From Haliotis asinina (lineage: Eukaryota; Mollusca; Gastropoda; Lepetellida; Haliotidae), in contig NC_090288.1 of NCBI RefSeq assembly GCF_037392515.1, positions 16,462,969-16,526,968 on the forward strand: a stretch of 64,000 nt of DNA, given 5' to 3'. Both the position numbers and the translations under genes were made by a program. Each line of letters starts with the position of its first letter. Position 1 is the stretch's first letter. Below the pieces are notes generated by a model. That model was not told the origin of the DNA. It was given only the letters and a program-made list of their open reading frames with translations, and did no database searches. Of the stretch, positions 9,807 to 58,307 are shown piece after piece.

Positions 9807-10069
9807 CTCCTATTTTTGAAGAAAATGTAATGATGTTCTTGAGTTTGAATTATGAAAATTTGGCCCTGCATAGCCCCCATAGGTATCTGGCTCTCCACTA
9901 ACTGCCAAGTCCGTGTTGCACGTGAAATTGTGGAATGTTCATTATAAAGGCAACTGAGTCAATTTCAGTTTCAGTCTTCACATTTGTGAGATGCAATTGG
10001 GTACGCATATGACATTGGTTGAGCGTCTCTTGACAAACTTTGAGTTTCTTAACATCTTGACAAACCAAA

Positions 10070-25146: not shown

Positions 25147-25155
25147 AAGAACTGC

Positions 25156-26424: not shown

Positions 26425-27056
26425 GGTGTATTAGTGTAATTCAACAACCCTGCCCCCCACCCACCATGGAGTGTCAACAAGGACGGTACCGCAGTGGAAA
26501 CCAGACTGCAACACCAGGGTTACAGGGATGTCATACTCCAGAAAATACAGACTTGAAAAGCCATGGTAACTTAAAACATAAGTGTCAGACTGGTTCGGCC
26601 CATGACACTGTTCCTAAGAACACGGAATTCAGAGGTCTATATAACCAGATTGACCCATGAGCCACCGCCTGCTGGCATAGGACTCTAGGTAAGTAAATGT
26701 GTCAATAATTTGTACACTAGATTTTAAAGTGACCAATACCCGAAAAATGTAAGTGCAAAATGTAAGCAATTTCTATGCACAGGGCATGGCGTGACCAGCC
26801 GATTGATTGAATCGGGCCCATTCAACCTCCCGTCTAGGTGAAGTCAGGGCCAAAGTGGTGTGTTGAGCAACAGGAACACGGTCACAGGCCCCTGTTACCC
26901 TCAACCACCAGGATCCCTTCCTCCACCGACACAGGGCCGCAACCCACGGCAAACGGGTTGGTGGACCAAATATCCCCCGGGTCCACTACGGGGGTGTCGG
27001 CGAGCTCTTGGCGTTACCCAGCACCAACCACGAGGAGGTGGCTCGCCACGGGTGCC
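26425..27056 (-). promoter_or_regulatory. LINE D 5' UTR (internal promoter candidate)
   Basis: Module 1 is 26780-27056, an unmatched spacer of about 95 bases follows, and module 2 is about 26435-26690. Module 1 has the GGGGGATATTTGGTCC subtype. Promoter function is inferred from its place in a full-length element; no TATA box is evident. Confidence 0.6.
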
Positions 27057-28266: not shown

Positions 28267-28512
28267 ATGAACGAGAACATGGAGCAGCGGACGTACTTCC
28301 AAAACCTTTGTCTTGTACTTACCCTTCATTTCATGATTGTAGTGGCGAAACAAGACCAACAGCTCACATTCAATCCCATTGGCATCCTTTTGTGTCAGTC
28401 TAAATGTATGAGTTATGGTTTCTGCAAATCTATTGCGTTTACAGAAAATAACCTAACTTGCAAATTATCAAATCAAGTTAGCAAGTCTGGAAAGATTCAT
28501 TTGGATGTTCAG
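28267..28512 (+). CDS. Host gene exon 1 (signal peptide and PAN-like cysteines)
   Basis: The 82 codons start at the ATG at 28267. A second in-frame Met is residue 5. Residues 14-27 (L-C-L-V-L-T-L-H-F-M-I-V-V-A) form a hydrophobic signal core. C43-x3-C47-x5-C53-x11-C65 with K-S-I-A-F between is typical of PAN/apple domains. The exon ends ...G-A-T-G-T-T-C-A-G followed by the donor GTGAGT at 28513, phase 0. A LINE tail fragment starts about 20 bases into the intron. Confidence 0.82.
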
Positions 28513-31500
28513 GTGAGTCGTGCTTTTCACTGAGTCAGTGAGTGAGTGTATGTGGATTATAAAAAGCTGTCAAAGAAGGACAGTAAAACAACTAGAATTA
28601 ATACAATTAGCATTAATACTAGCGTAGAAAGTTAAAACTAATATCATTATATGGACAATACAGTATGAACGAGTGAGTGAGTTAATATTAAGTGAGGCAA
28701 TATTTCAGCCAAATCGTGACGAGAACATTTAACAATGAAAAGGACTAGAAAACAACTAGAATATCACAATTTGAATGAAAACTAGTGTGGAAACGTAAAA
28801 TTAACATCACTATCTGGACAAAATATTATAAAAACAGGCTATAGATCTCCAACAACCGAAGGTAGATCACCATATTAGGGACCATGCGGACATACAGCAC
28901 CTTTGTTACTTGCATGGATTTGCACCATCCCTTCAGCCCCCTGCGAGTGGAGGACAATAATTTTACAATTCTTCAACCCCCTTCAACTAACAATTCTAGT
29001 TACTAATCTATACTACCAATCATTATAATACATCTGTCTACAGAACATATTACTCAAAATTCAACAATGAAATCAGTTTCCTTTAAGAAAACCAATAATT
29101 AGATGAGCACTGACTGTGTTAAAAAGATCCTTAATGGGTTACTGTAAAATATTTATCCCTTATGATGAAGAATTCAATACAGTCAAGCATGATGTGCTCG
29201 ATCATGCGTCTCTCATCACAAGGGATACAAAACGGAGGATCCTCACCTTTTAACATGTATGCATGAGTATATCTTGTATGACCAATACGACATCGTCGCA
29301 TAATGACCTCTTCAAATCTGTACTGACAACCCAAGTAAGTATAAGGGTATTATTTCATGTAATTTATTTATACCTATTTGGGTGTCCCACTTCTTCTGCA
29401 TCAGATCGCGAGTGTAAGCTCTAATGTTAGCTTTGAAGTCAGAATAAGGAATAAGAGTGAGTGAGTGAGTTATAATTTAACGTCACATCGGCAATATTTC
29501 AGCCATATCGTGACGAGAATAAGCATGATTATACAGAACATGTAGATATTATAAAACCCGTCATCAAAGTACGGTAAAATAACTAGAGTATCACAATTCC
29601 AGTCTAAAACTAGCATATGAAGTTAAAACTACAGCACAATTTGGACAATACATAATATAAAAGTAGGCTATAGATCACCAACAACTGAAGGTAGATCACC
29701 ATACTAGGAACCAAGGGGACTTACGTTACTTTAGCAACCTGCATGGCCCCTAGCTGGATTTACACCATCCCCTCAGCTGCTGGCGATTGTAGCAAAATGT
29801 AGCCGAAATTTAAAATGACAAAAATACTACGGGTAAAGGTAACGTGAAAAGTTAGTCTTACTGCAACAGCTTTGGGATTCGTCGTGAGTGTTACAGTGTG
29901 ACTATTGATAACGTCCTGGTTGACAAGGATTGAAGATCCTCCAGTGGCTCTGTCACCTGGAGGTGAAAAATAATTATATGCAACGAACTGTCATAAATTA
30001 TAAGTGTCGGTCTGCTTCAAATAGGTTTCCTGCGGACAGAAGGGTGAAGGTGCATCACCCTGGACTTATAGTTGTAACTCATGAAAATTGGACCATAATC
30101 ATCTGCAGTTCCACTGTGCTATTTGATAGGAGTAAACTGTCTTTTAGGTGGGTTGACTGGGGATCTGCCCTGGACCTTTTTGGAGGGCGACAAGCTGTGT
30201 GCCCGAGGAGGGATGCTATCAGATACATCCATATCTCCCAGTGATTCAAACTTATTCAACAGTTTGATCTTGTCTGATTCTTTAGGGGCTCGACTAGTTC
30301 TTAAAGTGTCTGATCTAAAGTGTCTCAGTTGGCTCAGGTTACGATCGAGGTTGCTGGGAGACGTTCTGCTGAGCAGGAAGTGATGTTTTCAGTTTGTGTG
30401 GATTGCTCAGGAGAAACAAGTTCAGGAGCGTATGTGTTTATCCATGTCAAGTCTGTTTGACAGGCATGTGACAACGTAATTACTGGTGAATTATTTTCTT
30501 TTCGGTTTGCTTCTCATGGTTCTCTGGTGATGGAGGCATATGTTTCAGTAGGATCAGTTGACTGTGTTAACCTTTTGGCCTCTGCAAAAAAGTGTTATTG
30601 GTAAATTTAATCCTGTTGATCTCCATCTGCTTTTTACAAGTAGGACAATCCTTAGAAAAAGCTGATTGATTTCCACGGCATTTGGCACATATTTAGGAGC
30701 TACTTTCACAATGCAACATATGCCATATTTGGGATTTCACTTTCTCAGTAAAGTACAAATTCTAGTACTTTTTTGGTTGAGCCCCATCCAGGTTTTGAAT
30801 CCGCACCGTCAGAGTCAGGCAACTAATCGCCAGCACACAAACTCAGCCGCCCAGCCCGCTCACCCACCGCAACTTCCACAAAAATGAAGGTCGGACAACT
30901 GGTAGTCTAGACTGCGTACTTTGTGTACCCACTCTGATGAGTGTAAATTGGCATTGTGTAATTATGGCTTTTGGCCTTGGGAGCCGTGCTAATTTACACT
31001 TATCAGAGGGGTACACAAAGTACGCAGTCTAGACTACCAGTTGTCCGACTTTCCAAACCCGGATGGGACTCAACCAAAAAAGTACTAGAATTTGTACTTT
31101 ACTGAGAAAGTGAAATCCCAAATATGACATATGTTGCATTTGACCACTTTCTAAATGGCATTGTGTAATTATGGCTTTCGGCCGTGGGAGCCGTGCCAAT
31201 TTACACTCATCAGAGGGGTACACAAAGTACGCAGTCTAGACTACCAGTTGTCCGACTTTCATTTTTGTGGCTGAGCGGGCTAGGCGGGTGACTTTCTGTG
31301 CTGGCGATTAGGTGCCTGACTCTGAGGGTGCGTGTTCGAAACCCGGATGGGACTCAACCAAAAAAGTACTAGAATTCGTACCTTCCTGAGAAAGTGAAAT
31401 CCCAAATATGACATATGTTGCATTTGATCACTTTCTATGGCATTGTGTAATTATACTTTCACAATCTTCTGTTACATGTGTATTCTCAGCACGGTGAGCA

Positions 31501-34500
31501 CATGTAACAGACAATGTGCAAGTGTTCACACCAAGGCCATATTGTGGCATTAAAAACACCGCAAAGGTTTGGGGATGTACAAATCAATGTTAACATTGCT
31601 GTAACCTGCCCTGATTGATTTTGGCGCATTTGGTACAGAGAACAAACATAGATACGTGTTAGTACGAACAACCTCATAACTTTTCCGGCTTGAAAATCTT
31701 TTTACATGTATCACTCCTTGATCGTGTTACACAGCAGTTATACTCATGAGTATTTGTTAAGGAGGTAAGGCTCCTCCGTTGCGTATACTTTGCGATCAAA
31801 GAATCACGGTCAAGCATGTTCTGCTTGACTGCATTGATTTTATCGTCAGAGGAGATCGATATTTCATTTAGTTTCATCTTTAAAGGTCTTTATTTTATTG
31901 AAGTCCACATTTAATTCTTGTATTTGTAAAGGAATTTTATTTGATTAATATTAATACATTTTGGTCATACACTGTAATTCATAACTAATTTGACATTTGG
32001 TTGAATAATTAGGTGACTATAATTGTTGGTGGCTGTACCCTTTGAAGGGGTTGAAGTAGCCTAACTAATTGTGCTCCGGAGAGCAGACCACATCATTCAA
32101 TGTATGTTGATCACTGCCAGAAGTTTATGTAGTTACAATATATGGTCAAATCGACGAAACTTTACCAATAGCCAAAGGGATGATGTAAACCCAGCTAGAG
32201 CCTTCCTACTAACACATAACATAAAGATATTTAGACCTTATCGTTGGAATGTAGTCACAGTATTTGTTTTATCGTATTGTTTAATATCCACTTGGATTCA
32301 AACTCCATTCCTTTACCACAGATATACATTTGAGAACTCTGTTGAAGGATTTGTCCAGATGCGTTTAGATTTTATTCGTTTTAATAACCTGCAGTACACT
32401 TTTTATAGTACCAGAAAACGTGGACCGATCCCTTTGACTCATATCAGAATGTTCCTTGAGACCTCCGACAATAACTAAAGGTTTAGATGTATGCTTTGTG
32501 TTTCTGTCTAATATTGCACCCATGGTCTCTACATTTGACTTTTTTTGTTTCTGTTCAAAGGTTCAAAATGACACCTTTCTTTCGGAGGCACACAATCCGG
32601 ACATGAGATGTCTGAAAACTCGATCAGGAAAATATATCTGTATTGAGGAGGATGTTGCTGGTGAGTCTGTGAGCGATTCATTGATTTGACATCGTCTTTT
32701 ATTCAACAGTACTGCATATCTTAGCCGCATGTAATGCGTACTTTGTCGTAAAAGGAGGACAGAAATGACGATCAGATCCATGACTGATTCAGTGAAAAGA
32801 CAGCCAGTGATTTTTGTGAATGATTAATGGTCATCGACTAGAAAGTTTACAAGAGTCATCATCAGATTACAAATCCTACGACTCTCGCAAACAGAAATGA
32901 CAGTCCAGCTGACTTAAGCGTTATTGTTTCCATGGAAATCATGAAAGCGATAAATGCCAAAAGTCCACATATAGCAAAGTGTGCCGTTTCTTGCCTGCCA
33001 AATGTGTTGAAAGATTTTGAGCGTGGTTTGCGTTTGTGCCTTGGAAACGAAGCCAACTCCCTCCCTTTGAGATACAGTCCACATCATTTCCATGGAAATG
33101 ATGAAAAATATGCATACCAAACTCCACAAATAGCCAAAGACACCAGTTTAGAATCTGTTTGACATATCTGAAAATCTTTGTTGATAGATGCTGAGTTGTT
33201 TTTGAGACTCTTTTTTGAGACAAAATTGTTTTCATGGAAATCGAGAAAAATGAAAGCGCCAAAAATCCTGTTTGACATATCTTTCTTCAGATCCTGTTTG
33301 ATATATCTTTCAAAGACAAGGATCCTCCATTGTGCATCACGGGCACATATATACTGCTCTGTTTACACAAATTTTGAGAAGTATAATCATAAGTATAACA
33401 TATGTTGCATGACCCGTTTGACTCCACTGATTCTTTCACCACAAGGGCAAATACAGTTAAGGATCTTTTTAGCAATGTTAATCATCATTTCTTTATTGAT
33501 TTTTAAAAAATAAACTATTCTAAACTGATAAATATTCATAGGGTTTTTTTTATTATTGGTAAATTAAATTTGTAACTTACATTGTTAATGGTTGTATCCT
33601 GAAAGGGGGTTAAGGAAATGTAAAGTCATTGCCCCCCGTAAATACGTAGGCCCCCTGAACATTCAAAGATAATTTAATCTTACCTCTTTTGTAGTCGTAG
33701 AATATGTGTGCTTTTAATGTATGGCTGTATTTTCTCCAATCGGTATCGGGTAAACGGATGGTGTAAATATAAGGCACATGGTCTTATGGTGATTTCAGTG
33801 CAAGGGCTTGTGTAATTTCGTGGGCATTACATGTTCATAGTTGGAAACAAAAATACTAAATGTAATCACTATTGTGTATTGATTTATATGGAACCGTAGC
33901 AGGACCAAGGTGAAAAAAATTAGATTATACTGAGATAGATAATTGGACTATCTCCCACCTAGGGCTAATATCTCCTTCGTAGTACTTAATATCTCCTCCT
34001 GTAGCAGATGGTCGATGCATATTAAAATGCATTCATCTGAAATGATCGACTTGAATATCCAGAGACTGTTAGAGTGTACTGTCATAGTGGTTTTTCTACA
34101 CTTATGTGTTACATTTACCATTAGAGTCCTCTGTTTCCTTCACCATTAGATTCACGTGTTCAACTAATTGTTGCACATTACTGCCATGTGTTGGACCGAC
34201 TGTTGTACTTAGCTGCCTCGCGCTCAGTTTGCTTTGCTTTTTCACTGTTATACGTTTTACTGTACTGTTATGTGTTGGTATTTCAGAGGTCATGAGTCAT
34301 AATCTGCGTGCACAGACGTGTTTTAGACTATCGGTGGCAATCTATGCGTACTTCTTTCCTTATTCTTACACAGGCAACTCTTATGGCAATATGTTGCCTT
34401 TTTGAATTTCGGATTGTTTTACGCCACACTCAACACCTCTCCATCCTAGACAAATCACGTACACACACGCACGCACGCACACCGTTACTGTATAGTAGCA

Positions 34501-37500
34501 TGGCGATAATGCCATGAATATTCACTGACTTGCATTTCTATCAAACGTCCTGCACAACACTTTTCAGCTTGATAACAATACTTTGAAACAATACCTGAAA
34601 AGGGATACATTAATATCTACGTAGGAGTTGGTATGTCCTACGTAGCACATCCTACGTCCTGTGTAGGATATATGCAGTCCTACGTTGGCGACTGTAAGTC
34701 CTACGTGGGAGATACTAAGTCCTACGTAGGAAATATTGAGTAATAAGTCTTACGTAGGAGACATTATGTCCAAAGTAGGGGATATTAAGTTCTACGAAGA
34801 AGATATTTAGTCATAGTATAATAGATAGTATCACATACGTAGGAAATAATGAGACTGAAAATGACTTTACTGTGACCCTACCACGTAGATTTATTTGACA
34901 ACCATGGTTCCATTTTTTCTGTTTACTTAATGTAGAGTGTGTGAATATGAGTTCCCAAATTGCTTCATTTCGAGACAAAAATATTTCCATTAACTAATCA
35001 TAACAAAGTTATGTAGCATATCAAAAGGTAGCTCATGATGCATGAAATAGAAATAACCGAGCACCATGCTTCTAATTTCAATTAAAAGACATTAATTATA
35101 ACATAATCATACAATATAATAGGTATTGTCTGTCCTTTAACGGACACCAACATGGTAAGCATTGGTCTATAGTAATGGAAACAATTTTTTTCTCCCATTC
35201 ATACTACCATGACACACATATGTAGTAATGATAGTACCAAGGTCCGCTTAATGTGACTACCACATATTCATATTCCTCATTTACGTAACAGTTCGACGTT
35301 GCGATTGTTCTTGAAATAACTCTCTATAAATACACTCTTTTAAAAATAAATTCTGAAAGTCAAAATGTTTGTACGCATATGCCAAATAAATGAATAGCAG
35401 AACCAGCATCAGCAACTGTCTGGCAAGTGCGCACTTTTAACAGTTGATTTTAGTTAGTTTGAACGGTAAAACAAGCTGTACTAGTTGACTGAATCAAGAG
35501 TGAGTGAGTTATTATTTAACATCACACTGACAATATTTCAGCTATATCGTGACGAGAACAAACATGATTATAAGGAATATGTATATATTCTAAACCCCGT
35601 CGTCAAAGTACGGTAAAATAACTAGAGTATCAGAATATGAGTTTAAAACTAGCATCTGGAGTAACAACTCAATTCGGACAATACATAATATAAAAACAGG
35701 CTACAGATCACCAACACCTGAAGGTAGATCACCATACTAGGGATCAAGGGGACTTACATTACTTTTGCTACCTGCATGGACCCTAGCTGGATTTACACCA
35801 TCCCCTCAGCTGCTGATTGTAGGAAAATGTAACCGAAATTTAAAATGACAAAATTACTACGGTTAAAATACTGGTAAGTTTAAATTTCCCTTTGAAAGTT
35901 TTGGGACTACCGTACCCTCTCAGTGGAACAATAATTTTACGCTACTTTAACCCCCTTCGAGGGTACAGCCACTAACAATCGCAGTTGACAATTCATACCA
36001 CCGTGTTTAAAACATCAGCTTTCTATTTACAAACATATTATTCAAAATTTATCTAATAATCCTATTTCCTTTAAAACTTCAATGATTAAATGATAATTAA
36101 CATTAAATGAGTGAGTGAGTGAGCTAATATCTAACGTCACATCGGTGATATCTCAGCAATATCGTGACGAGAACATTTAATACTAAAATGAAATTTATCT
36201 CTATTATGAAACCTGTCAGCGACGGACAGTAAAACAACTAGGATATCACAGAGTAGAATACTCAGTACAGAACTAGAACTAGTAACTATACCTAAAACAA
36301 TTTATCTATACAGGACAATACAATATAAAAATAGGCTATAGATTGCTAACAAGTGAAGGTAGATCACCATACTAGGGACAATGGGGACTTACAGTACTTT
36401 TGCTACCTGCATGGACCCTAGCTGGATATACATCATCCCCTCAGTCGTCAGCAATTTGTGAAATCTAGCCATACAATAAAAAGACATTTATTCTACGATT
36501 AAAAACCTGGAAATTTAGAATTTACTTTGAATGTTTGTGGACTTACGTACCCTCTCGGTAGGACAATAATTTTACAATACTTCAACCCCCTTTGAGGGTA
36601 CAGCCACTAACAATTTTAGTTACAAATCTAAACTACCAATAATTAAAATACATTTATTTACAGAAAATGTTATTCAAAATTCAACCATAAAATCAATTTC
36701 TTTTTTAAAAAAATAATTGAATGAGAATTAACGTTTGTAAAAAGATCCTTTACAGTTTTGACCTTCAAATATTTATCCCTTGTGATGGAGAATTCAACAC
36801 AGTCAAACAGAATATGCTTGACCGTGACTTTCATCACAAGGGATACAAAATGGAGGATCCTCACCTTTTGAAAAGTATGAATGAGTATATCTAGTATGGC
36901 CAATACGACATCGTCTTAAAATAACCTCTTCAAATCTGGACTGACAGCCCAAGTAGGTGTAACCAATATACGGCTTTATTTCATGTAATTTATTTATACC
37001 TACTTGGGTGTCCCACTTCTGCATCAGATCACGGATGTAAGTTCTAATGCTAGCTTTGTAATCAGTGTATGGAATAAGAAGTGGTGTCACAGATTTGTTG
37101 AGTGCAGCCTTGGCAGCAAGATCAGTCATTGCGTTACCGGAAATGCCTACGTGGGTGGCTAACCAACAGAATACGATGTCGTATTGGCCAGTAGCAAGAT
37201 TATTATACAATTCAATAATGTCAATTAAAAGTGGATGTTCACAAGAAATATTTTTAATAGCCTGAAGGCAAGAAAGAGAGTCAGAATAGATTATGTACTA
37301 TTATGTACAAAGTCTTAGACCTTGACGGTGAACGGAATCAAGAAGTTTTAAATTGCTTTTATAGGCTCCACCATATACAAGGGAGCCATAATCAAGTTTT
37401 GACCGGATCAGTGATCGATAAAGTTGCAGGAGGGTAGCTTGATCCCCTCCCCACTCAGAATTTGAAACGACTTTCAACAAGTCAAGTGCATTGAGGCATT

Positions 37501-49500: not shown

Positions 49501-52500
49501 ATCACCATACTAGGGACCATGGGGACTTACAAAACCTTTGATATGTTGCCCCGAGGTCACACCGATCCTTTTTGGGAACGTGAACACGTTCTTTGACAGG
49601 TAGTTGAGTTTCCTAGAGATATTTTTGCCCATACAGATTGTACATCATTGGAAAAGAAATTACTGACAGCTACTAGCTCTACAATAATGTGATGGCATTC
49701 TTGGAGATGAATTTATGATTTGTTAACTCCTTCTTTCATGTCCTCAGGAACACTAGTTTCCCTATGTTTACCACGCCTGTCTGGTCTAGGAGTTATATTT
49801 CTTGTTACTTGTTCATGAAAACGTCTGACTAATATCCAGGGTTGTAAGGTAGAACTCTTTACACACTCGAAGGCTTTTTTCTTCAATAATGAAAAAATAT
49901 TAAATGGTATATTTTTTCCTAACTGCTTACTTTTCAGACTTCCTTTTCGTTTGGTCTCTTGTGGTTGTGCTGCCATAAAATACTGACTTTTCTGAGTCAT
50001 TCAGCTTCCAGAGATTCAAATATTTTTTGTCGTTTGTTTGATAATATTTCCTGGCTGCATTTGAATTTACATCTTCCAAAGCAGACTTTCTTTGTCGTAA
50101 TCGTTGGTAGTCTTGGTCCTACATCCCCCTTTGAATTTATATATTCCTGTTCACTCTGTCTTTTCCGGTTTCTAACATTGCCTGTCCACTGATCTTTTTT
50201 TATGTACGCTTTCGGGCCCTTGAGTGTTCCTCGTTAGTGTTATATACATTTTCAATACCGTGTTCCCTACACTGTTTGTTTGTTTCTTCTGTGAATTACT
50301 TTTTCATTTTCTGAGTCATCCAAACTTTCCTCCTGACAACATAACTCATCATCATCGATATCCTTGTCAGAAGCTTTCTCATCCAAATGATTAGAGTTTG
50401 TTTTCATACACTCTCTTCAACAAGTTTCTACCTCTGGCATCAACGCATGTGCCCGATCGTTATGTTTCTGTTTCACAGAATCTAGGGCAGAAGTGATAAA
50501 AGCATCATCTAAACACAATGGATGTTCATTATCGTCATCATTATCACCATCATAATCATTCAGTTTGTTCAATAGAACCACAGCTGTTGACTGATCTATG
50601 TTAAGGGTGCTGATAAATCTCAAAGTGACAGTCACAATAACGGGCTTCTATTTGCTGTTCAAATGACCTTATTGTCACGCGATCCTTCAGACTATTTGAT
50701 AAAACAGTAAAGTGTTGTAACATTTATTCACCTGATTTTATGACGATCATCAACGTCCCATCCATGGTGTTCAAACATCAAAGAAACCTTTGATCACATG
50801 ATACTAAGTCTCTCACTTTTTATTAAATGAAATTCGTAGACTAGTATAGAACTGAATTCAAGTGACGTTGATAGATAGAAGAAGATGATTCTGTCTCTGA
50901 CAACTTTATTATTGGAAAACCCTTACTAATGTTAATTCTATGGCGTGAAGCTCTCGCCAAGAGAGCAACCTCCTCGTGGTGGGTGCTGGGTAACGCTAAG
51001 AACTGTTCAAATTCCCGTGTGGACCCGGATCAACCCGAATTGGGCAGCCTGTTTGCCGTTTGATGGTCAGCTATGATGTTGTTGATTTGTTCACAAACAT
51101 TCCTCTACATGAAGCTCTTGATGTTCTCCGTGCTAAGTTAGCTAGTTGTATTGACACCAAACTCACCATTGACAGTATACATCAACCTTGTGTCTAGCCG
51201 TCTCCAGACCTCGTACTTCACATGGCAGAACAGCATCTACCAGCAGATCCATGGGCTCACCTCTCTCTCCGCTGATAACTGAAATCTTCATGACCAGCTT
51301 TGAAGAATCTGCCCTATCTACATCGCCATTCCAACCGTTATGTTGGTATAGAAAAGTTGATGACACTTTCACTATCCTAGATCCCAACCACAAGCCTGCA
51401 GAACTCCCTCACCACCTTAACAAACAACACGCCCGCATCCAGTTCACGATGGAAGTAGAAGCCCAACACAAGCTGCCATTCCTAGACGTATCCCTTGACA
51501 ACTCATCTGAAAGAAGCGTTCCCACTGTCTATCGAAAGTCCACCCACATTGACCAGTATATCCACTACCTATCCAACCACCATCCACAAATAAAGCAAGC
51601 CATAGTCTCCACCCTAGCCAGACGTGCCAAAGCCATCTGTGACCCAGCCCACCTCCAAGACGAAATTGACCACCTCAAGAGAACTTTCATCACCCTCAAT
51701 GGATACCCAAAACAACTCGTTGACCAGACTAGAGCCACAACTCTCCAGCATCAGAACGACCGCCTCCCTAAACCTGAGCCTGCACCCATCCGAGTCAACA
51801 TTCCATACCAAGGAAAGATAAGTCATCAAATGAGCCGACTCCTCAGAAAAACTGCCAGTGTTGATGTGGCCTTTTATTCTGATAAGACATTGAAAAACAT
51901 CCTTAGAGCAAATGGAAGAGGAGGTAGTGATCACACCAACCCCAACCCCAGAGGCTGCATCTACAAGATAAACTGTGATTGCGGCAGCAGCTACATAGGT
52001 GAAACCTGCAGACCATTCAACATCAGACCCAAAGAGCACAAAACTTCAGTAAGAAAATTAGATCTGAAATCGGCCCTCTCTGAACACATCGTCAACTATC
52101 CAAACCACTCCATCAACTGGAAAAACACCGAGATCCTGGCTTCCAACATCAGTGATTGGCGGAGAAGGAAGCTTTGGGAAGCAATCAACATCAGAAGATT
52201 AGAACCTCAGATCAATAGAGATCAAGGCGTGTACCTACCCTCTGCCTGGTGTGTCAACAAGGACTCATAGACTCTCAATATATCAGCTGTGTAAACAACT
52301 ATGTACTGTTAAAACTCTCCTCCTTTCATCTCTCCTCTGTGATTGTACATACCTAATTACATTTATGTGCTTGTATATACATCTTACCTCTCTGGCTTCA
52401 TGTATACCTGTATATATTCTGCAATGTTACCTATGTTCATTATCCGCCTGACGAAGGGGCAAGAATTAGCCTTGAAACGTCGTGTTGAAAGAATTAAAGA

Positions 52501-55500
52501 AGTTGTCATCCATGATAGTGTCTTGTATTACCTCATCAATTTCTAAATGCCTTTGAAGAATTTCACTAAAACTACTTGATTCTGCCCACCACCAAGGACT
52601 AAGACTCTGTCTTGGGTCCTCAACGTCGTATAAAACTAGCTTTACAGTATATTACGAAATTCTATTCTAACGGGTCTAATCCTGCATTCCATTGTGTTTT
52701 TAATCCTCTTTATGATGATTTGTACGCCAATAAATCTTCTCTTGTTCCTCCTCTTGGACTCAGAATTAAGCGTTTCATTACTGCTGCCGGCATTGAGCTG
52801 GATAATAATAGCGCCTTCTCGTCTTCTTTCTTCTCCTTGCCAATTGGTTAGGCCACAGGTTGACCTAACATTGACTACATTTAAAAAATCAGAAACAGAT
52901 GACTTACAATAGAAACAAGAGTATAATCAATTATAAAGTAAATATAGCAATTATAAACCCTTATTTACAGATGGATCCAAGGACAGTGGAGCAGTAGCTT
53001 GTGCCACAGTCACTGGATCCAGAACAATATCTTCTAGATTGCCAGATAACAGTTCTATTTTTACGGCTGAAGCAAACGCCATACTAACGGCTCTTAAATA
53101 TATTAAAAAAACACCCAAACATAAACAGTATATAATCTATTCCGACTCTCTTTCTTGCCTTCAGGCTATTAAAAATATTTCTTGTAAACATCCACTTTTT
53201 AATGAAATTATGGAAATGTCTAATGATCGTGCTTACTGGCCAGTATGAATTAAAACTAGTGTGGAAAGTTCAAACTGATATCACTATTTGGACAGTACAA
53301 TATAAGAGCCGGCTACAGATTGCCACCAATTGAAGGTAGATCACCATACTAGGGACCATGGGGACTTACAGTACCTTTGCTACCTGCATGGACCCTAGGT
53401 GGATTTACATCATCTCTTCAGACGCTGGAGAGTGTACGAAATGCTAACCAACATGAATACTACGATTAGTAACCTGATAGACTTAAATTTACATCGAAAG
53501 TTTTTGGACTTACGTGGTCTCTCAGGAGCCAGTGGAGCCGGTATGTATTTAGATGTGTCAGTTCAGTGAATGTGTGTTATTCCCTATTGAATCACGTATG
53601 TGATAACTAGCACGTAGTATTTGAATTTGCTATGATATTCTTTTAAAGACGTCACAGAAAGTGGTTCTCTTGCAGACGTGACACCTACTCGTTCAGACAG
53701 TGCAAGAGCAAAAAGAAAAGGAAGCGTTAAAGCAAAGCCCAAAGGCATCGTTACAGGAAAACAAAAGCACAGTGTCCCTGTAATAAGAAAAGGCACACGT
53801 CGCATGTGCAAAACTGGAAAGTACCAGTGCGGATCTGAATCAAAGCCACATTGTTGCCACTCTTGGAAATGGACCGGTCGTGGGAAAGAGTGTATCAAGT
53901 CAACTTGGCAAACTACAGTAATAACAATTTTTTACTCTTTGTAAATGTAGACGGACATTTATCGGCCAGTGATCTGAAGGCGCCCTTGCATAGTCCAATT
54001 TGAGTGAATGTGTGTAGTTTTACGCCACACGCAGCAATGTTCCAGCCATATGACGGAAGTCTGTAAGTAGTCGAGTCTGGGCCAGACAATCCAGTGACCA
54101 ACTGCATGAGCATCGGGCTACACAATAGGGATGCGATACCATATGCCAAATGAGGCATCACATAAGCACTATTCTTACTTCCAAGTATTAATAAAACACA
54201 TGCTATTTAAACATCAGGAGAAGAACGTTGTATCCATTCAGGAAAATTGTGTAATGTACACAAACGTTTCCACGAACACCTTAAATATAAAGTATTATTA
54301 CTGGAGAACTATGAACACTTTATGCCAGTAATACGAATCTCAACCACTTGCATCCCTAGTGAACTGTTGTGGCTACTTCCAAGTTAAACAGAGTACCAGG
54401 GTTTACCATCGGGACAATGTCAGCCCTATATTCAAGCTTAATATGTAAAACAAAAACTAATGGCAATCGTACACACATATATCAGTTCTGTTGAGAGGGT
54501 GTGATATGATTAGGTTTCAGGCAGATAACAACAAATATGTGTTATGCATTTCCGCAAATGCATATTTCTTGATTATCCACTTGGTGAAACATGTGAAAGT
54601 TCTTGATGAACACAAAGCTTTCCATTGTATCAGAAAAAAAAGCCAAGAATGTTGAACAGAATCTCAACGTCAATGTTGATGGCTCTGTGCTGCTAGACGC
54701 TACGGAAATGAATATCAACTAAGCACGTTGACATATCATCAACACAAGGAACGCTTTCTCGGAGGAGGTGTGTTGAGGATGAAAAGCTATGATTAAGTCG
54801 GTTGGCCTGAAAGGTGTAACAGAATTTTCATTTTGCTGCTCTGAATCATTTATATAAGCTTCAATGTGTGATTTTACGTCAAATATGAACACGAAATGTA
54901 CATTTTGTAATACAATGTACATTTGACAGAGTATGATACTAGTGAAAACCCAGCTAGACACCAGTGATAACATATGTCAGTGCAGTGCTCTGAGACATGG
55001 ATACGATAGTTCAGAGTTATCTAAAACCAAACCAGACCGTCGGACTGGCTAGCGATAAATTTGCACCTTCTCAGTCGGTCTGCTGACGGGCGCTTATTTC
55101 ATAAGCTGCATTTAATGATAGAGTCCCCACCTTGTTATTGGACACCCATCGTTGGCATAGACACTGTAGATTAACAGAAATGATATTGCAGCTCAGCCTT
55201 TTATATTATCGCCTTCGCCGTGAAAATAGCAACATTGCTAACAAATTACATCCATTCTCATTTTGCAGTGGAAGGAGCAGAAACTTGATCATCATTAGAT
55301 GGCAACCTTAGCCAGAATAATATCATGTTTAGCAATGCCTGACATTTTTATGAACTCATTCACTGTCGCATCTATCAGAATGATGTGATAACTATCTTGT
55401 ATTATCATCTGTGTTGACATTGACTCAAATGTATCTTTTTGTTGATAGGATAAGGATCAAACGCAACATCCTAACTCCAGAAACGAATTCCGACTGTCTG

Positions 55501-58307
55501 TAAAGACTACGTTTATGACACCTCCCAGCAGGTAAATATCGTTCAGCACCAGTTTTATCTGTCTGTACTTTTCACGGTCTGGCATACGTAATTTACATTA
55601 AATATTCCTCCTTGACATTTGAAAATATGGGAACGCTGTGATGCGCAGTGTCGTGCACTGCAGTCAGTATTTATCGTCACATCGGCAATATTGCAGCCAT
55701 AGCGTGACGAGAACAATTTAATTGTATACCAGTAGTAAGAGCAATAAAATAAAAACTTAAGAACCTGCCATCGAAGGACAGTAAAAAGACTCGGCTATCA
55801 CAGGTATGAACATAAAACTAGCATTGAAAGCCAAAACACTGTAACTAAAGAGGACAATACGACATAAAACACGGGCTATAGACCGCCAAGAACTGAAGGT
55901 AGATCACCATACTAGGGTCCATGGGGACTTACAGTACCTTTGCTACCAGCATGGACTCTAGCTGGATTTCCACCATCGCTTCAGACATTGGCGATTATAC
56001 TGAAATTTAGCCTTTCTCAAAAACAACAAATATACTACGATTGAGAGTTTGGCCGGACTAAATTTACATAAAATGTTTTGGGACTTACGTACTCTCTTAG
56101 GGGGACAATACTTTTACAATACTTCAACCCACTTTGAGGGTACCGCCACTAACAAATGAAGTTACTAATCTAGACTACCAATGATAAAATATGTATCTAT
56201 TTACAGCTCATTTAACAAATCCAATTCCTTTAAAAATGCGCAGTGCAGGGCAGTGCATTATTGTTAAAAAATCGATGTAGGCATCATTCTATATCCGGCT
56301 CGACGGATACGGGAAAGTGTTGAGCATAATTCATGGTAGATACGTCAGAATGAAAACAAATGTATCTACTTCTTGCAAAAAGCAAGTTCCTTTAATGTCA
56401 GCTAGTTATGCATGTCCTCATCCCATAGTGGGTCGAATGTTTAATTGTTCATAGAGAAACCATGGCATGTATATCAATTCTACCTGAACATGGTGTGAAG
56501 AGCACATTTCTCTTTGCAGACTAAAGATAATACTCAGATTCAGAGATAGTGATAATCTGATGTTTACTGATGACATATCTACGCGAAAATCAACGGTAGG
56601 ACTGCGAGACACGGTCCGTGTGAAAGTATTACAAAGACGGACATGGCACCAAGCTAGACAGAGTAAAGAGTATACAACTGAAATCATTGGAGAGAATGGT
56701 GCATACAAGGTCTGTATTTGTATATTTGTGTCATTGGTTTGTGCTGAAACTTTTATCATTACCATTCAGCAACAGCAACAGCTGATTCTATCTGACATTG
56801 GGTCATGTAGGAGATGGTAATGATGGGGATTCCTCACATTCTCGCAAACCATTCTTGGTGGGTTTGACAGTGGGGGATAATAAGACATGAATGTTAAGTC
56901 TAGATTCCGTTATACATTCTTAAAAAATGAAACGCTCAGGCGTTTTCAGCAGTTTGTTATAGCAATTGTCTTGACGTTTATGACAACGTTTGTGATTAAG
57001 AAAATGACAAGATACATGACAACTGACGTAATGCTAGTGCAATGTGTTGGAAACCTGAGTAAAGCCATCGACTACGAAAGGCCAAATCATATTCAATACG
57101 ACTTTTCGACGTAAATGAAGTTGAAATGTCAAGATTGAATGCTACTGACCGAAATATCGCCAGTGGACGTTTGGAAACAAAGGACCTCCAGTCTGCCGTT
57201 GTAAAACTCTTCAACGTCCATCGTACCATGTTTCGATTATGGCATCGATATAACCGTTTCAGTTCGGCCCCAAATAATCCCAGAAGTTTAAGACCAAAAG
57301 TGACCACTCCTGCTCAGGACCAATTCATCAGTGCTTCACCTACGTCACCGATTTGGTACAGCTACGGACACAGGTGCTTGGTCTTCGAAGAATTTCTGAC
57401 CAAACCATCAACGTATTTCGCTGCACTGCGTTCGACAGGTGGACAGATTTGGTGGATAAAGCCTCATTTTATATGGCGCCATGTCCTACAGAACTAGTGG
57501 GGGTTCAAGGCAACCATGTCATCATACAACTGCAGTATGTAACAGTAAATCGTAAGTCACGAATCAAGCATTTTGAGGGTGCTGTTTCAACACAACAAAG
57601 CGCGATCCCACACAGGTGCCTCTATCGGCAAACGTGAAAGTTAATGTCCTTCCTTCACCATCAATAATCGCCTGATCGAACCCGAACTTGACAGACGCGT
57701 GCGTAAACGTCACCATCGCCCGATTGTGAAAACGTTGGAGGAGGAATGGCGAAGAATTCCCTAACCAAAACTTATGCAGTATCTTCAAAGGCAGTGTATG
57801 GCCGTCACAAGTGCAACTGGTACTGACATGAAATGCATGCATGCACACTTCGACTTGTCACGTGAAAATCCGGACTAGATTTGGTGTACAACAATGTATA
57901 CTTGTCGAAAGAAGCGAAGGGCGGTCGCTCGTCACGCTGAAGATCCTTGTTCGATTCCCTACATTGATACGATGTGTGAAGCCCATTTCTGGTGTCCCCC
58001 GTCGTGATATTGCCAAACGCGGCGAAAGACCAAACTCACTCACTCATGTAAGAGGGCGATTGACGAAATTGGATGGTCAGGCTACCTGGCTTGGATGATG
58101 CATATCTCGCCAATACATTCTCAAAAGTAATTACAAACTGTATTTTCAATGTGTTTTCAGATTTATATTGATGGCGAGCCGTACGTACAGGTCCGGAAAA
58201 GATTTCCAAGGACAGGCCCAAACATAGTCAATGTTCAAGAACTGTATGGCACTGTGACGCCACATGAAGTAACAATCAGAAAGTGTGCTGTAGGTCCCTG
58301 TTGCTGA
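28267..58307 (+). CDS. Host gene: six-exon secreted PAN-like protein, 335 aa (spliced)
   Basis: Join 28267-28512, 32561-32660, 53676-53917, 55449-55531, 56520-56709 and 58161-58307. The exons total 1008 nt, exactly 336 codons with the stop, and every intron is GT-AG with matching phases (0, 1, 0, 2, 0). The protein has a signal peptide (about 1-28), a PAN/apple-like module (about 40-110 with C43, C47, C53, C65, C99, C109), a Lys/Arg-rich linker (121-158), a Cys-Cys-Trp module (C160, C167, C175-C176, W179, C188) and a beta-rich C-terminal region (about 205-327) ending C-A-V-G-P-C-C. It should be secreted or on the cell surface. I do not recognise the C-terminal domain and give no name. Introns hold nearly all the transposons of the right half, mostly antisense. 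Confidence 0.82.
28531..28670 (-). mobile_element. GTGA-LINE 3' end fragment in intron 1
   Basis: A CAGTGAGTGAGTG tail and about 120 bases of the outer 3' UTR (GGACAGTAAAACAACTAGAAT) are present. The next fragment's tail starts immediately at 28671. Confidence 0.75.
28671..29456 (-). mobile_element. GTGA-LINE fragment K (3' UTR and ORF2 C-terminus)
   Basis: From the GAGTGAGTGAG tail the fragment runs through the 3' UTR to ORF2 codons for the C-terminal zinc region (C-R-I-G-H-T-R-Y-T-H-A-Y, C-I-P-C-D-E) and the end of RNase H. It stops near I-P-Y-S-D at 29456, where fragment J begins. Confidence 0.8.
29457..29831 (-). mobile_element. GTGA-LINE fragment J, young 375-bp 5'-truncated copy
   Basis: About 300 bases from the tail inward are identical by eye to the 3' UTR of LINE D; only a few changes appear near 29760-29805. 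It sits between LINE K and LINE L pieces. No clear TSD is seen, perhaps because of a target deletion. Confidence 0.85.
30701..30712. repeat. Left TSD of palindromic SINE-like insertion (TACTTTCACAAT)
   Basis: The same 12 bases recur at 31454-31465. Both copies are LINE L ORF1 sequence. Confidence 0.88.
30713..31453. mobile_element. Palindromic tRNA-like SINE composite, 741 bp, with 12-bp TSD
   Basis: The insertion contains one unit in minus sense (30713-30950) followed by about two units in plus sense (30960-31145 and 31155-31453). Each has GTACACAAAGTACGCAGTC, CTAGACTACCAGTTGTCCGA, AAAAAGTACTAGAATT and GAAAGTGAAATCCCAAATATG. The last unit has the tRNA-like boxes (TGAGCGGGCTAGGCGG and GTGTTCGAAACCCGG). 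The first two face each other and can form a long hairpin centred near 30955. It encodes no protein. Confidence 0.75.
31454..31465. repeat. Right TSD of palindromic SINE-like insertion
   Basis: This matches 30701-30712. Confidence 0.88.
31770..32210 (+). mobile_element. GTGA-LINE remnant in plus sense (ORF2 end and 3' UTR)
   Basis: Codons resembling R-I-T-V-K-H-V-L-L-D-C-I-D-F lie near 31790-31850. The 3' UTR marks GTGGCTGTACCCTTTGAAGG (about 32029) and GGATGATGTAAACCCAGCTAG (about 32178) follow. It is old and damaged. A 135-codon ORF at 32071-32478 lies in this remnant and beyond and is not supported as coding. Confidence 0.65.
32561..32660 (+). CDS. Host gene exon 2
   Basis: The acceptor is preceded by a pyrimidine tract (TTTTTTTGTTTCTGTTCAAAG). 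The 100-base exon encodes residues 83-115 (V-Q-N-D-T-F ... E-E-D-V-A) with C99 and C109, which could complete the PAN-like module. It ends after one base of a codon, at donor GTGAGT (32661). The spliced codon with exon 3 is GAC (Asp116). Confidence 0.8.
32925..33310. repeat. Diverged ~150-bp repeat units around CATGGAAAT
   Basis: TTTCCATGGAAAT-like blocks recur at about 32928, 33088 and 33230, each followed by ATGAAA-rich sequence. GTTTGACATATCT recurs at about 33158, 33270 and 33297. No function is evident. Confidence 0.5.
33315..33620 (+). mobile_element. GTGA-LINE remnant in plus sense (ORF2 C-terminus)
   Basis: The sequence GGATCCTCCATTGTGCATCA corresponds to the D-P-P-F-C-I-P zinc segment. 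ACAGTTAAGGATCTTTTTAG corresponds to T-V-K-D-L-F. A 3' UTR mark (GGTTGTATCCTGAAAGGGGG) follows near 33589. It is strongly diverged. Confidence 0.6.
33940..34850. repeat. Foldback-like region with palindromic CCTACGTAGG minisatellite
   Basis: Between 34610 and 34850 about nine ~30-base units repeat the theme TCCTACGTAGGAGATATTAAG. At 33950-34015 the same theme occurs inverted (CTTAATATCTCCTCCTGTAG), so the two ends can pair across ~600 bases. The 34470s also hold a short (CACG)n run. It could be a foldback or MITE-type element, but its borders are not clear. Confidence 0.55.
34851..35497. other. Intron 2 sequence, no feature seen
   Basis: This is AT-rich sequence without ORFs, known repeats or splice-flanked exon candidates. 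Confidence 0.5.
35498..36107 (-). mobile_element. GTGA-LINE fragment I (3' UTR and last ORF2 codons)
   Basis: The fragment has a GAGTGAGTGAG tail, a complete 3' UTR and the final ORF2 codons to ATTAACATTAA. It closely resembles LINE D in the UTR. It ends where the tail of LINE H begins. Confidence 0.82.
36670..38314 (-). pseudogene. LINE H ORF2, RT and RNase H remnants
   Basis: Recognisable in order on the minus strand are T-M-E-R-M-I-N-N-R-L-V-W, I-F-F-Y-L-E-K-A-Y-D, Q-G-V-P-Q-D-S-V-L, F-V-D-D-like codons near 37780, and then, after a ~650-base deletion, L-A-T-G-Q-Y-D-I-V-F-C-W-L-A-T-H-V-G and the zinc end. Numerous stops and shifts are present. Confidence 0.8.
38302..38314. repeat. Left TSD of LINE G (CCATGAAGGAGGA)
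   Basis: These 13 bases recur at 44363-44375. Both are codons of the LINE H RT. Confidence 0.93.
38888..42487 (-). pseudogene. LINE G ORF2 (EN, RT, RNase H), at least two nonsense codons and a late frameshift
   Basis: The ATG at 42487 overlaps the ORF1 stop (ATGA). The endonuclease has Q-W-N-C-R-G, Q-E-T and G-D-L-N-G-H-N-P-L-W. A TAA replaces Ser in the F-E-W-S-V-H-D-D segment at about 41885. RT is open with F-D-L-E-K-A-Y-D and F-V-D-D-F-N-I-S-C. A TGA replaces Gly in A-T-V-I-G-S-R at 39599. RNase H continues in the same frame to A-D-L-A-A-K-A-A-L and the zinc end. The last ~10 codons are shifted by a 1-base deletion near 38886. Confidence 0.9.
42484..43759 (-). pseudogene. LINE G ORF1, frameshifted after the knuckles
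   Basis: From the ATG at 43759 (M-A-T-Q-L-P-T-G-S-R-S) the frame encodes the RRM-like region and three knuckles (C-F-K-C-Q-Q-S-G-H-G-A-R-S-C, C-F-R-C-S-K-N-H-D-G-T-D-C, C-A-N-C-K-G-E-H-M-S-S-S-K-A-C). It breaks near 42971-43000. The Ser-rich and basic tail can be followed in other frames to the end R-A-R-S-P-I-E-P-P and the TGA at 42484-42486, which overlaps the ORF2 ATG. Confidence 0.87.
43760..44362 (-). promoter_or_regulatory. LINE G 5' UTR, second module-1 subtype, slightly truncated
   Basis: Module 2 is about 43770-44025, a ~75-base spacer follows, and module 1 is about 44100-44362 with TGTCCACAGCACCCCATTGC. The same subtype occurs in copy C and in the inverted end of F. Confidence 0.55.
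44363..44375. repeat. Right TSD of LINE G
   Basis: CCATGAAGGAGGA matches 38302-38314, and the LINE H RT sequence goes on after it. Confidence 0.93.
44363..45840 (-). pseudogene. LINE H ORF2, endonuclease, linker and RT start
   Basis: The endonuclease (45230-45840) has Q-A-V-A-V-R-I-T-L-H and I-M-G-D-L-N-G-H-N-P-L-W. The linker has S-D-H-F-P-T-I-L, R-K-P-W-F-N-D-E-C-K-Q-A-R and T-P-M-S-K-V-W-N. The RT start has H-D-T-A-T-G-A-D-N-I-H-Y-Q-L. Frames change near 44460, 44710, 45225 and 45385. It joins 38314 leftward. Confidence 0.82.
45850..47040 (-). pseudogene. LINE H ORF1
   Basis: The start lacks the ATG region. W-P-R-F-L-I-I-E-T joins directly to L-N-P-F-A-I-S-K-G through a short deletion. 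Knuckles C-F-K-C-Q-K-Y-G-R-G-V-N-T and C-A-H-C-A-E-N-T-H-V-T-E-D-C follow, one His-to-Arg change included. The tail is Ser-rich with D-M-D-Y-S-E-N-V at its end. Confidence 0.8.
47415..47690 (+). CDS. Hypothetical 91-codon ORF, unrecognised
   Basis: The composition is Asn/Lys/Glu-rich and the end (N-L-D-K-S-K-A-T-L-I-G-S-K-A-K-S-I-D-K-I-W-N-D-L-K) looks protein-like. I cannot assign a family. It has no splice borders matching the host gene and lies in intron 2. It may be the C-terminus of an old mobile-element gene or chance. Confidence 0.25.
   Translation: MCYVNCTRYYGCIMRNNENIKANVINDNEYKLEQYANDNELFHGGAEETLYSATDNLLQNIRFENLDKSKATLIGSKAKSIDKIWNDLKIE
47764..47865. repeat. C/A-rich low-complexity tract
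   Basis: Poly-C followed by irregular AAAAC repeats makes a strongly purine-biased run of about 100 bases. Confidence 0.9.
47866..48900. other. Intron 2 sequence, no feature seen
   Basis: This is AT-rich sequence. Two overlapping plus-strand ORFs from 48759 have no motifs. Confidence 0.45.
48915..49130. promoter_or_regulatory. Promoter-like cluster: YY1-, TCTCGCGAG- and ETS-type sites
   Basis: AAGATGGCGGC (48922-48932) matches the YY1 consensus, TCTCGCGAG (49084-49092) the palindromic element of TATA-less promoters, and CTTCCGG (49117-49123) an ETS core. The three together in 210 bases are typical of housekeeping promoters. Which transcript they would serve is not visible. Chance or an inserted promoter fragment is possible. 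Confidence 0.4.
49176..49279 (-). mobile_element. GTGA-LINE 3' UTR scrap
   Basis: About 100 bases of inner 3' UTR (GTAGATCACTATACTAGGGA, CCATGGGGACTTACAGTA) are present, cut at 49279 by the next tail. Confidence 0.75.
49280..49535 (-). mobile_element. GTGA-LINE 3' end fragment
   Basis: The AGTGAGTGAG tail and about 250 bases of the outer 3' UTR are present; the piece is 5'-truncated. Confidence 0.8.
49660..50214 (-). pseudogene. Degraded ORF of an uncharacterised repetitive protein family
   Basis: The minus frame from about 50214 encodes N-R-K-R-Q-S-E-Q-E-Y-I-N-S-K-G, C-F-G-R-C-K-F-K-C-S and I-F-E-S. After two small frame changes it goes on with K-S-Q-Y-F-M-A-A, Q-P-W-I-L-V-R-R, R-R-G-K-H, E-D-M-K-E-G-V and S-P-R-M-P-S-H-Y-C-R-A. 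The order C-x3-C-x3-C, I-F, then K-E-G-V and S-H-Y-C-R recalls a family of uncharacterised, repeat-borne proteins of marine invertebrates. I do not know its function. It is clearly broken. Confidence 0.55.
50215..50944. other. Intron 2 sequence, no feature seen
   Basis: A minus ORF (50417-50635) rich in Asp/Asn may be an extension of the broken gene at 49660-50214, but it shows no motif of its own. Confidence 0.4.
50945..51062 (+). mobile_element. GTGA-LINE module-1 fragment fused to Penelope-like element
   Basis: The sequence CTCCTCGTGGTGGGTGCTGG, GTAACGCTAAGA, GTGTGGACCCGG and TTGGGCAGCCTGTTTGCCG is the plus-sense 5' module of the LINE. It stops inside the CCGTGGGTTGCG block, where Penelope RT sequence begins. 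Confidence 0.75.
51063..52270 (+). pseudogene. Penelope-like RT with GIY-YIG endonuclease, frameshifted
   Basis: The first part encodes D-V-V-D-L-F-T-N-I-P-L-H-E-A-L-D-V-L and, after a frame change, Y-F-T-W-Q-N-S-I-Y-Q-Q-I. A further shift at about 51250 leads to M-G-S-P-L-S-P-L-I. From 51188 a 360-codon frame is open, with W-Y-R-K-V-D58-D59-T-F (RT catalytic Asp pair), L-P-F-L-D and Y-R-K-S-T-H-I-D-Q-Y. The GIY-YIG motif follows at residues 257-285 (C-I-Y-K, C-G-S-S-Y-I-G, R280, E-H-K). These proteins copy RNA by target priming with a nickase unrelated to the LINE enzyme. Confidence 0.9.
52440..52485 (+). ncRNA. Hammerhead-ribozyme-like core in the Penelope 3' UTR
   Basis: CTGACGA (52448-52454) and GAAAC (52474-52478) fit the conserved CUGAYGA and GAAA boxes. 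The intervening bases can form a short stem II (AGGG with CCTT, one G-U pair), and GTC (52479-52481) could be the cleavage triplet. Penelope-like elements are known to carry minimal hammerheads. Stem I partners and activity were not established. Confidence 0.45.
52565..53248 (+). mobile_element. GTGA-LINE fragment N in plus sense (RT end to RNase H)
   Basis: The fragment encodes L-D-S-A-H-H-Q-G-L-R-L-C-L-G-S, then after a deletion R-R-I-K-L-A-L-Q-Y-I-T-K-F-Y and F-N-P-L-Y-D-D-L-Y. RNase H follows with T-D-G-S-K, F-T-A-E-A-N-A-I-L and Y-S-D-S-L-S-C-L-Q-A-I-K. It breaks at 53248, before the final RNase H Asp, and meets a minus-sense 3' UTR piece. Frameshifts are present. Confidence 0.82.
53249..53530 (-). 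mobile_element. GTGA-LINE 3' UTR fragment
   Basis: The sequence AATTAAAACTAGTGTGGAAA through GGTAGATCACCATACTAGGG and TGCTACCTGCATGGACCCTA to TTACGTGGTCTCTCAGGA is the minus-sense 3' UTR without tail. It faces fragment N. Confidence 0.8.
53676..53917 (+). CDS. Host gene exon 3 (basic linker and Cys-Cys-Trp module)
   Basis: The acceptor is GGTTCTCTTGCAG. The two first bases complete Asp116; 80 codons follow. Residues 121-158 hold about fourteen Lys/Arg with dibasic sites (A-K-R-K-G, T-R-R-M-C). Then come C160, C167, C175-C176-H-S-W-K-W and C188. The exon ends at ...T-W-Q-T-T with donor GTAATA (53918), phase 0. Without splicing the frame would end at a TAA at 53942-53944, so a short form ending here is an alternative. 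Confidence 0.78.
53998..54165 (-). repeat. (CACT)-tailed gastropod repeat, 168 bp
   Basis: In minus sense it ends GTGTGGCGTAAAACTACACA followed by CATTCACTCA, the same kind of 3' end as the SINEs at 57905 and 61061. The body has TCTGGGCCAGACAATCCAGT and GCATGAGCATCGGG. I recall such sequence as frequent in abalone DNA. Confidence 0.6.
54166..55448. other. Rest of intron 3, no further feature seen
   Basis: No repeat family from this window and no convincing ORF were found. A pyrimidine tract ATCTTTTTGTTGATAG closes the intron. Confidence 0.5.
55449..55531 (+). CDS. Host gene exon 4 (83 bases)
   Basis: Flanks are TATCTTTTTGTTGATAG and GTAAATATC. The exon reads D-K-D-Q-T-Q-H-P-N-S-R-N-E-F-R-L-S-V-K-T-T-F-M-T-P-P-S and ends after two bases of an Arg codon completed by exon 5. 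Only this frame is open and it matches the phases of both neighbours, which is the main support for so short an exon. Confidence 0.72.
55665..56240 (-). mobile_element. GTGA-LINE 3' fragment in intron 4
   Basis: The outer end (TATTTATCGTCACATCGGCA) lacks a clear GTGA tail. The whole 3' UTR and the last ORF2 codons (to CCAATTCCTTTAAAAATGC) are present. Confidence 0.8.
56520..56709 (+). CDS. Host gene exon 5
   Basis: The acceptor is ACATTTCTCTTTGCAG. The first base completes Arg224. The 63 codons read L-K-I-I-L-R-F-R-D-S-D-N ... G-L-R-D-T-V-R-V-K-V-L ... E-I-I-G-E-N-G-A-Y-K, with alternating hydrophobic residues as in beta strands. The donor is AAG/GTCTGT (56710), phase 0, somewhat weak. The frame is closed soon after the donor by non-coding sequence. 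Confidence 0.75.
57126..57830 (+). pseudogene. Second Tc1/mariner transposase remnant
   Basis: M-S-R-L-N-A-T-D-R-N-I-A-S-G-R-L, K-L-F-N-V-H-R and R-P-K-V-T-T-P-A-Q-D are the helix-turn-helix N-terminus of a Tc1-like enzyme. L-R-R-I-S-D-Q-T-I follows in another frame (57375). The catalytic part is deleted. The C-terminal L-D-R-R-V-R-K-R, L-E-E-E-W-R-R-I-P and R-Q-C-M-A-V-T-S-A appear at about 57685-57820. It is not closely related to the Tc1 at 9787. It lies in intron 5 of the host gene. Confidence 0.78.
57905..58048 (+). mobile_element. tRNA-like SINE with (CACT)n tail
   Basis: A B-box-like TGTTCGATTCCCT follows an A-box-like region by about 40 bases. The body GAAGCCCATTTCTGGTGTCC and CCGTCGTGATATTGC is shared with the SINE at 61061. 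It ends CCAAACTCACTCACTCA, like the LINE tail in sense orientation. Confidence 0.75.
58161..58307 (+). CDS. Host gene exon 6, terminal coding exon
   Basis: The acceptor is AATGTGTTTTCAG. The 48 codons read I-Y-I-D-G-E-P-Y-V-Q-V-R-K-R-F-P-R-T-G-P and continue to E-V-T-I-R-K-C-A-V-G-P-C-C, then TGA at 58305-58307. C329, C334 and C335 at the extreme C-terminus suggest disulfide bonding or dimer formation. The reading frame is phase 0 as required by exon 5. Confidence 0.8.
   Translation: MYIDGEPYVQVRKRFPRTGPNIVNVQELYGTVTPHEVTIRKCAVGPCC

Follow-up and report, generated by a model that had tools for sequence, protein, structure and literature searches.

The window analysed here, a 64,000-nucleotide stretch of Haliotis asinina DNA (plus strand, C9:16462969-16526968), contains a six-exon nuclear gene, hereafter W, which is probably intact, belongs to a tandem family and would encode a secreted recognition or cross-linking protein composed of a PAN-like module, a linker and a galectin-like end. 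Judged by its domain types, the product most likely serves in recognition or adhesion outside the cell, and the tandem family to which it belongs evolves fast. A preliminary description of the window had proposed a complete spliced gene within this transposon-rich DNA, and the proposal was upheld by five paralogs with the same six-exon structure. The PAN-like module, the galectin-like domain and the gene cluster are additions to that description. A gene of small exons, spread across 30 kb that consist of repeats for more than half, could thus be pieced together from the bare sequence, with its paralogs supplying the proof.

The preliminary description contained no exon list; we rebuilt its chain from scans for acceptors and donors and from the ends of the interval it had claimed, and we infer that the rebuilt chain is the one that was meant. 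It consists of six plus-strand exons with GT-AG borders (28267-28512, 32561-32660, 53676-53917, 55449-55531, 56520-56709 and 58161-58307), as had been stated. With exon sizes of 246, 100, 242, 83, 190 and 147 bp, which add up to 1008 bp, and with phases 0, 1, 0, 2, 0, the chain gives the reported 336 codons including the stop. Its longest exon indeed measures 246 bases (exon 1, from 28267), and the TGA stop at 58305-58307 lies within the last segment, as described. While the six-exon structure stood, the gene borders required revision: the start moves to 28279 and the 5′ edge of exon 3 perhaps to 53649. No Met is found at the position equivalent to 28267 in any of the five paralogs, whereas all five have a Met at the equivalent of 28279. 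On this comparison, the conserved start of W is predicted to be the ATG at 28279 rather than that at 28267, and in combination with the other borders of the preliminary description it gives 332 codons. Three candidate acceptors of exon 3 (53649, 53658 and 53676) share one frame. When compared by eye, the acceptor of the paralogs B1, B2 and B3 was the counterpart of 53649 and that of paralog C the counterpart of 53658; the GT donors of exon 3 are placed at the same phase in the paralogs. Exon 3 of W may start at 53649 instead of 53676, and with this acceptor and the start at 28279 the protein has 340 aa.

In the revised model, all six exons lie on the plus strand with AG/GT borders throughout and a single terminal stop. 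Exon 1 (28279..28512), which is also present in the five paralogs, carries the signal-peptide-like start and the PAN-like module and ends at the donor CAG/GTGAGT (score 12.7). Exon 2 (32561..32660; phase 0 to 1) has the same 100 bp in all six copies. The lysine-rich linker and the Cys-rich segment are encoded by exon 3 (53649..53917; phase 1 to 0), the Cys codons being located at 53807-53893. The galectin-like region begins in exon 4 (55449..55531; 83 bp, phase 0 to 2), which matches B1 and B2 collinearly at the DNA level and has the borders GATAG/GAT...CAG/GTAAAT; its core lies in exon 5 (56520..56709; 190 bp, phase 2 to 0), and its end, together with a terminal CxxxxCC motif, in exon 6 (58161..58307; 147 bp, phase 0). 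None of these exons exceeds 270 bp. A candidate polyadenylation signal, AATAAA, is found as a sequence match only at 59125..59130 of the plus strand, ∼820 bp past the stop, and an ATTAAA also occurs at 58644. Other models were dropped. A four-exon model was abandoned when a low-copy stretch lying between exons 3 and 6, conserved and collinear in the paralogs, was recognized as exon 4, after which exon 5 was found; chains with phases 0, 1, 0, 2, 0 and a fifth exon ending at 53917 were rejected, the real fifth exon being 56520-56709.

The paralogs were obtained by searching the genome (1.14 Gb, 159 contigs) with the DNA of exon 1 as first query, followed by protein searches for further exons. 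At five other loci, all within 0.74 Mb on this contig, the six exons recur in unchanged order, with identical phases (0, 1, 0, 2, 0) and borders and a single terminal stop. Four of them are located on the minus strand, with exon 1 near C9:16,192,974 (B1), C9:16,310,301 (B2), C9:16,703,916 (B3) and C9:16,790,745 (B4), and one on the plus strand, with exon 1 at C9:16,876,860 (C). The cluster extends over ∼16.173-16.911 Mb of C9 and comprises at least six genes on both strands. The preliminary description had named related genes with a different exon order as grounds for doubt, and the order proved identical in all five paralogs. We consider the exons to be real because collinear exons of the same phases and borders are conserved at five other loci of the genome. 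Exon 6 measures 147 bp in five copies and 165 bp in C, and all differences in exon length among the five copies tabulated are multiples of 3.

The individual exons were recovered with differing ease. When B1 exon 5 was searched against the 1.14 Gb, it matched only 7 places, 6 of which are these copies, W being reached only at E 6.3; in a local set, exon 5 of W matched that of B1 at E 9e-5 and exon 4 of W matched that of B1 at E 0.004. The genome search with B1 exon 4 returned B1, B2 and B4 only, and did not recover W, B3 or C. Exon 4 of C, with E 0.015-0.06 in a small set, was assigned mainly by position and borders. In B4, exon 4 could begin at any of three positions in frame, and the acceptor of exon 3 is weak and was placed by eye. 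Further pairs of exons 1 and 2 form another set, which lies partly within this cluster (C9:16397883, C9:16592927 and C9:16827984) and partly on two more contigs (C8:63306489, C8:63349352 and C13:10868530). These pairs encode a PAN-like start with a longer insert, and in five of the six the two exons are ∼1 kb apart. Of 40 scored matches that resemble exon 2, 21 fall on contig C11 between 5.6 and 18.1 Mb, all of these weak (E 0.0155 to 3.5), which suggests a larger related group of PAN-like genes.

The predicted protein opens with a signal-peptide-like start, after which come a PAN-like module, a linker that is cationic and rich in Lys, Ser and Thr, a Cys-rich segment and a galectin-like end. 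With respect to the signal peptide claimed earlier, the hydrophobic stretch is present (CLVLTLHFMIVV, residues 11-22, followed by VVA-KQ), and the start is graded here as signal-peptide-like. Judged from this hydrophobic N-terminus, the product of W is probably secreted. Exons 1 and 2 encode the N-terminus and the PAN-like module, of which residues 39-74 derive from exon 1. The PAN_1 family (PF00024) matched all six copies at E<=1, around a CxxxCxxxxxC core in exon 1; its cut-off of 21.4 bits was exceeded only by B4 (22.7) and by the four-exon protein of W (22.2), the full six-exon protein of W scoring 20.1. The cysteines at positions 39, 43, 49, 61 and 95 (numbering of W) do not vary among W, B1, B2 and B4. 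In exon 2, W has lost a Cys (NDTFLSE versus, for instance, NGTCSSE) that is kept in seven other aligned exon-2 peptides, and it has an extra Cys ten residues past the MRC motif (KYIC; a W residue in the others). The linker measures 53 aa in W, 107 in B1, 156 in B2, 245 in B3 and 299 in C, and is almost lacking in B4. In the five copies with a measured linker, K+R account for 22-29% of its residues and the pI is 10.9-11.6. Since linker length thus varies more than 5-fold within one cluster, the family offers a test case for the diversification of repeat-armed recognition or adhesive proteins. A Fibrinogen_BP match on the linker of B2 (E 0.0006, with 18.7 bits against a cut-off of 50), which one member also gave under the four-exon model, was read as low-complexity and rejected. 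After the linker, five of the six copies share the pattern CxxxxxxCxxxxxxxCC.SWKW, with CG in place of CC in C; this stretch matched no convincing Pfam family, Fibrillin_U_N being found at E 0.1-0.6.

Exons 4 to 6 together encode the galectin-like domain, which becomes continuous only after splicing. Five of the six copies matched the Gal-bind_lectin family (PF00337) at E<=1, and at least two of them, B1 with 25.0 bits and C with 24.4 bits, scored above the cut-off of 22.1. Scores under this cut-off were obtained for B2 (21.5, full protein), B3 (15.8) and B4 (13.9, exons 5-6 only), and W's own protein gave no PF00337 match in Pfam scans at E<=1. When a profile of the six copies was compared with the PDB, 57 sequences matched at E<=1, seven of these below E 0.01. 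We take 53 of the 57 to be galectins, by their names or by their kinship, many being variants of one protein; most matches were variants of galectin-3 or -8. The top match, at E 1.6e-4, was a fibre protein, presumably a viral one that contains a galectin, and the remaining three were levanase (two) and GPAT1. LEC-6 matched the six-copy profile at E 0.0024. Galectins contact their sugar through the motif H-N-R, N, W-E-R. When LEC-6 is aligned with the family profile, its LHFNAR is placed opposite LhFgvD, and nothing in the profile corresponds to the W-x-x-E-x-R stretch of galectins. At the sugar-contact position the family has LHFGVD and W has LMFTDD. On these alignments the canonical sugar-contact residues are not conserved, and we therefore call the domain galectin-like rather than galectin. 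As the residues that would contact galactose are changed, the ligand is probably something other than a simple beta-galactoside.

To assess selection, dN/dS was determined over 287-304 aligned codons for the ten pairs among five copies, with only the last 120 nt of exon 3 included. The ratios ranged from 0.42 to 0.71, with a bootstrap upper limit below 1 in nine of the ten pairs; the closest pair, B1-B2, had a bootstrap range of 0.32-1.91. For the four pairs that involve W, dN/dS was 0.42-0.59 and the bootstrap upper limits were at most 0.84. When W was evolved neutrally in simulations with 0.1, 0.2 or 0.3 substitutions per site, the frame was still open in 39, 2 and 0 of 2000 runs, respectively. 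Since dN/dS is below 1 and neutral simulation rarely or never keeps the frame, W would seem to have evolved under constraint during most of its past.

The agreement of frames had been put forward in the preliminary description as an argument in itself, a total length divisible by three with matching phases being deemed unlikely by chance. This argument did not survive a count of the alternatives. With exons 1 and 6 fixed and four internal exons of 45-246 bp each, the window yielded 49,147 in-frame chains when splice scores were filtered strictly and 38,266,566 under a looser filter; in the looser set, 863 chains had both the noted phases and the noted total. With so many in-frame chains available, from tens of thousands up to millions, frame agreement lends the model little weight. 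A plausible but false exon at 53422-53540 likewise speaks for a chain found by trying many splice sites; it was rejected as part of a dispersed repeat whose many copies across the genome contain stops. Even so, the probability that W itself is a chance chain is practically negligible in view of the collinear, phase-identical exons at the five other loci and the handful of places matched by B1 exon 5, and copy searches in the genome and in the local set speak against a dispersed-repeat origin of the matching paralog exons. It is also very improbable that the main product skips exons 4 and 5 (273 bp, 91 codons, in frame) and so has no galectin-like domain. The four-exon form would be open, since exon 3 can be joined directly to exon 6 in phase 0, and would comprise 249 aa with the PAN module, the linker, the Cys-rich segment and a short tail. 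However, both exons have kept their phases and borders in all six copies, and the galectin-like domain arises only when they are included. Several features of W could be expected of a recent pseudogene or silent copy in an otherwise functional family. Its least conserved exon, exon 5, shares just 27-33% identity with the four copies compared, whereas identity among B1-B3 themselves is 63-88%; the linker of W is the shortest of the five measured, its exon-3 acceptor is weak, its Cys pattern is altered, and repeats at depth >=3 in the local set occupy 16,873 of the 30,041 bp of its gene body. Nevertheless, its frame is open, every splice site is present, its length changes come only in threes and its dN/dS is below 1, so that we regard a dead or silent W as unlikely and retain the intact family member as the preferred reading.

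What such a gene product would do is a matter of its domains. Once secreted, as predicted from its start, the protein may contact glycoproteins or glycans with its PAN-like and galectin-like ends, if these behave as their domain types imply. The basic, length-variable linker would serve as a flexible arm and might also stick to acidic surfaces, such as those of microbes, mucus or shell matrix. Two predicted binding ends joined by an arm could bring about extracellular recognition and cross-linking, by analogy with the chimeric lectins of snail plasma. The main rival to recognition is a structural or adhesive role, as a secretion of shell matrix, mucus or adhesive in which the Lys-rich repeat acts and the galectin-like end does no more than cross-link. 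Linkers that are basic, repetitive and greatly unequal in length fit such a role, and pearl oyster is described as having lysine-rich matrix proteins (PMC4498902). In frog skin glue, a galectin is reported to interact with the repetitive PRIT glycoprotein (PMC11237159), which resembles the window family in combining a flexible repetitive protein with a galectin outside cells; the glue differs in consisting of two separate vertebrate proteins, and a common origin with the window family is not claimed. On the other hand, the linker of W has just 53 aa and that of B4 has nearly vanished, and we see the structural role as a real possibility that stays clearly on the lesser side. Recognition and cross-linking by a secreted family member is the function that we favour.

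The nearest described design appears, by analogy, to be that of GREP, the galectin-related proteins of Biomphalaria snails in the VIgL/FREP group. In excerpts of the two reports (PMC5433772, PMC9334734), GREP is termed a precursor, occurs in plasma and has several predicted copies, and variants are given for its predicted pocket residues. GREP is a gastropod chimera that joins an N-terminal non-lectin part to a galectin-type domain, a plan that the window family, with its galectin-like end, would share. It differs in having immunoglobulin-type loops where the window family is PAN-like, and the same excerpts mention no lysine-rich linker for GREP, whereas one is present in the window family (PMC5433772, PMC9334734). 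Pfam scans of the copies at E<=1 matched no Ig families. The family resembles galectins (PF00337) by the profile similarity of five of the six copies and by the PDB galectins that match the six-copy profile, but departs from them in its signal-peptide-like start, its changed sugar-contact residues and its fusion to PAN-like and Cys-rich parts. Its likeness to PAN/Apple proteins (PF00024) lies in the PAN_1 match around the CxxxCxxxxxC core of exon 1; it differs from these in scoring near or below the cut-off and in carrying a galectin-like end. A six-exon profile of three copies found no relative at E<=10 in a protein collection of uncertain mollusc coverage (3905 candidates). Earlier models, which were incomplete or wrong, found no relative in the protein collection at E<=1 and at E<=10, and a four-exon profile had 0 matches in the PDB. 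Our literature search returned no paper joining galectin, PAN domain and mollusc and, among the titles and abstract openings listed, none naming such a fusion, which is not proof of absence from print. It thus appears that a chimeric, secreted, lectin-like design is already known and that the combination of a PAN module, a galectin-like domain and a variable lysine-rich arm is new. If the domain reading is true, this combination joins the secreted lectins of molluscs. We tentatively propose, with a confidence that falls somewhat short of even, that the family represents a class of chimeric, lectin-like secreted proteins that has not been described before. Proteins composed of a PAN module, a hypervariable lysine-rich arm and a galectin-like domain whose ligand pocket has been rebuilt would have been expanded in tandem in one mollusc lineage, with fast change of repeat length and pocket, in parallel to the FREP/GREP recognition molecules, which consist of other modules.

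The surroundings of the gene are rich in dispersed repeats, and the LINE copies of the window lie on the minus strand. One of these (21472-26430) starts with a frame of 424 aa that had no Pfam match, followed by endonuclease and reverse transcriptase/RNase H domains in two adjoining open frames. On the plus strand, fragments of a Tc1/mariner-type transposase occupy 10061-10840, with HTH_Tnp_Tc3_2 in 10061-10453 and no Pfam match in the second piece. A plus-strand frame of 365 aa inside intron 2 (51173-52270) likewise had no Pfam match; it resembles the terminal part of a Penelope-like element that has a motif of the GIY-YIG type. Finally, the dispersed repeat at 53255-53540, which has many copies in the genome, presents an open frame, an acceptor and a donor and so makes a convincing false exon, a trap for gene finding.
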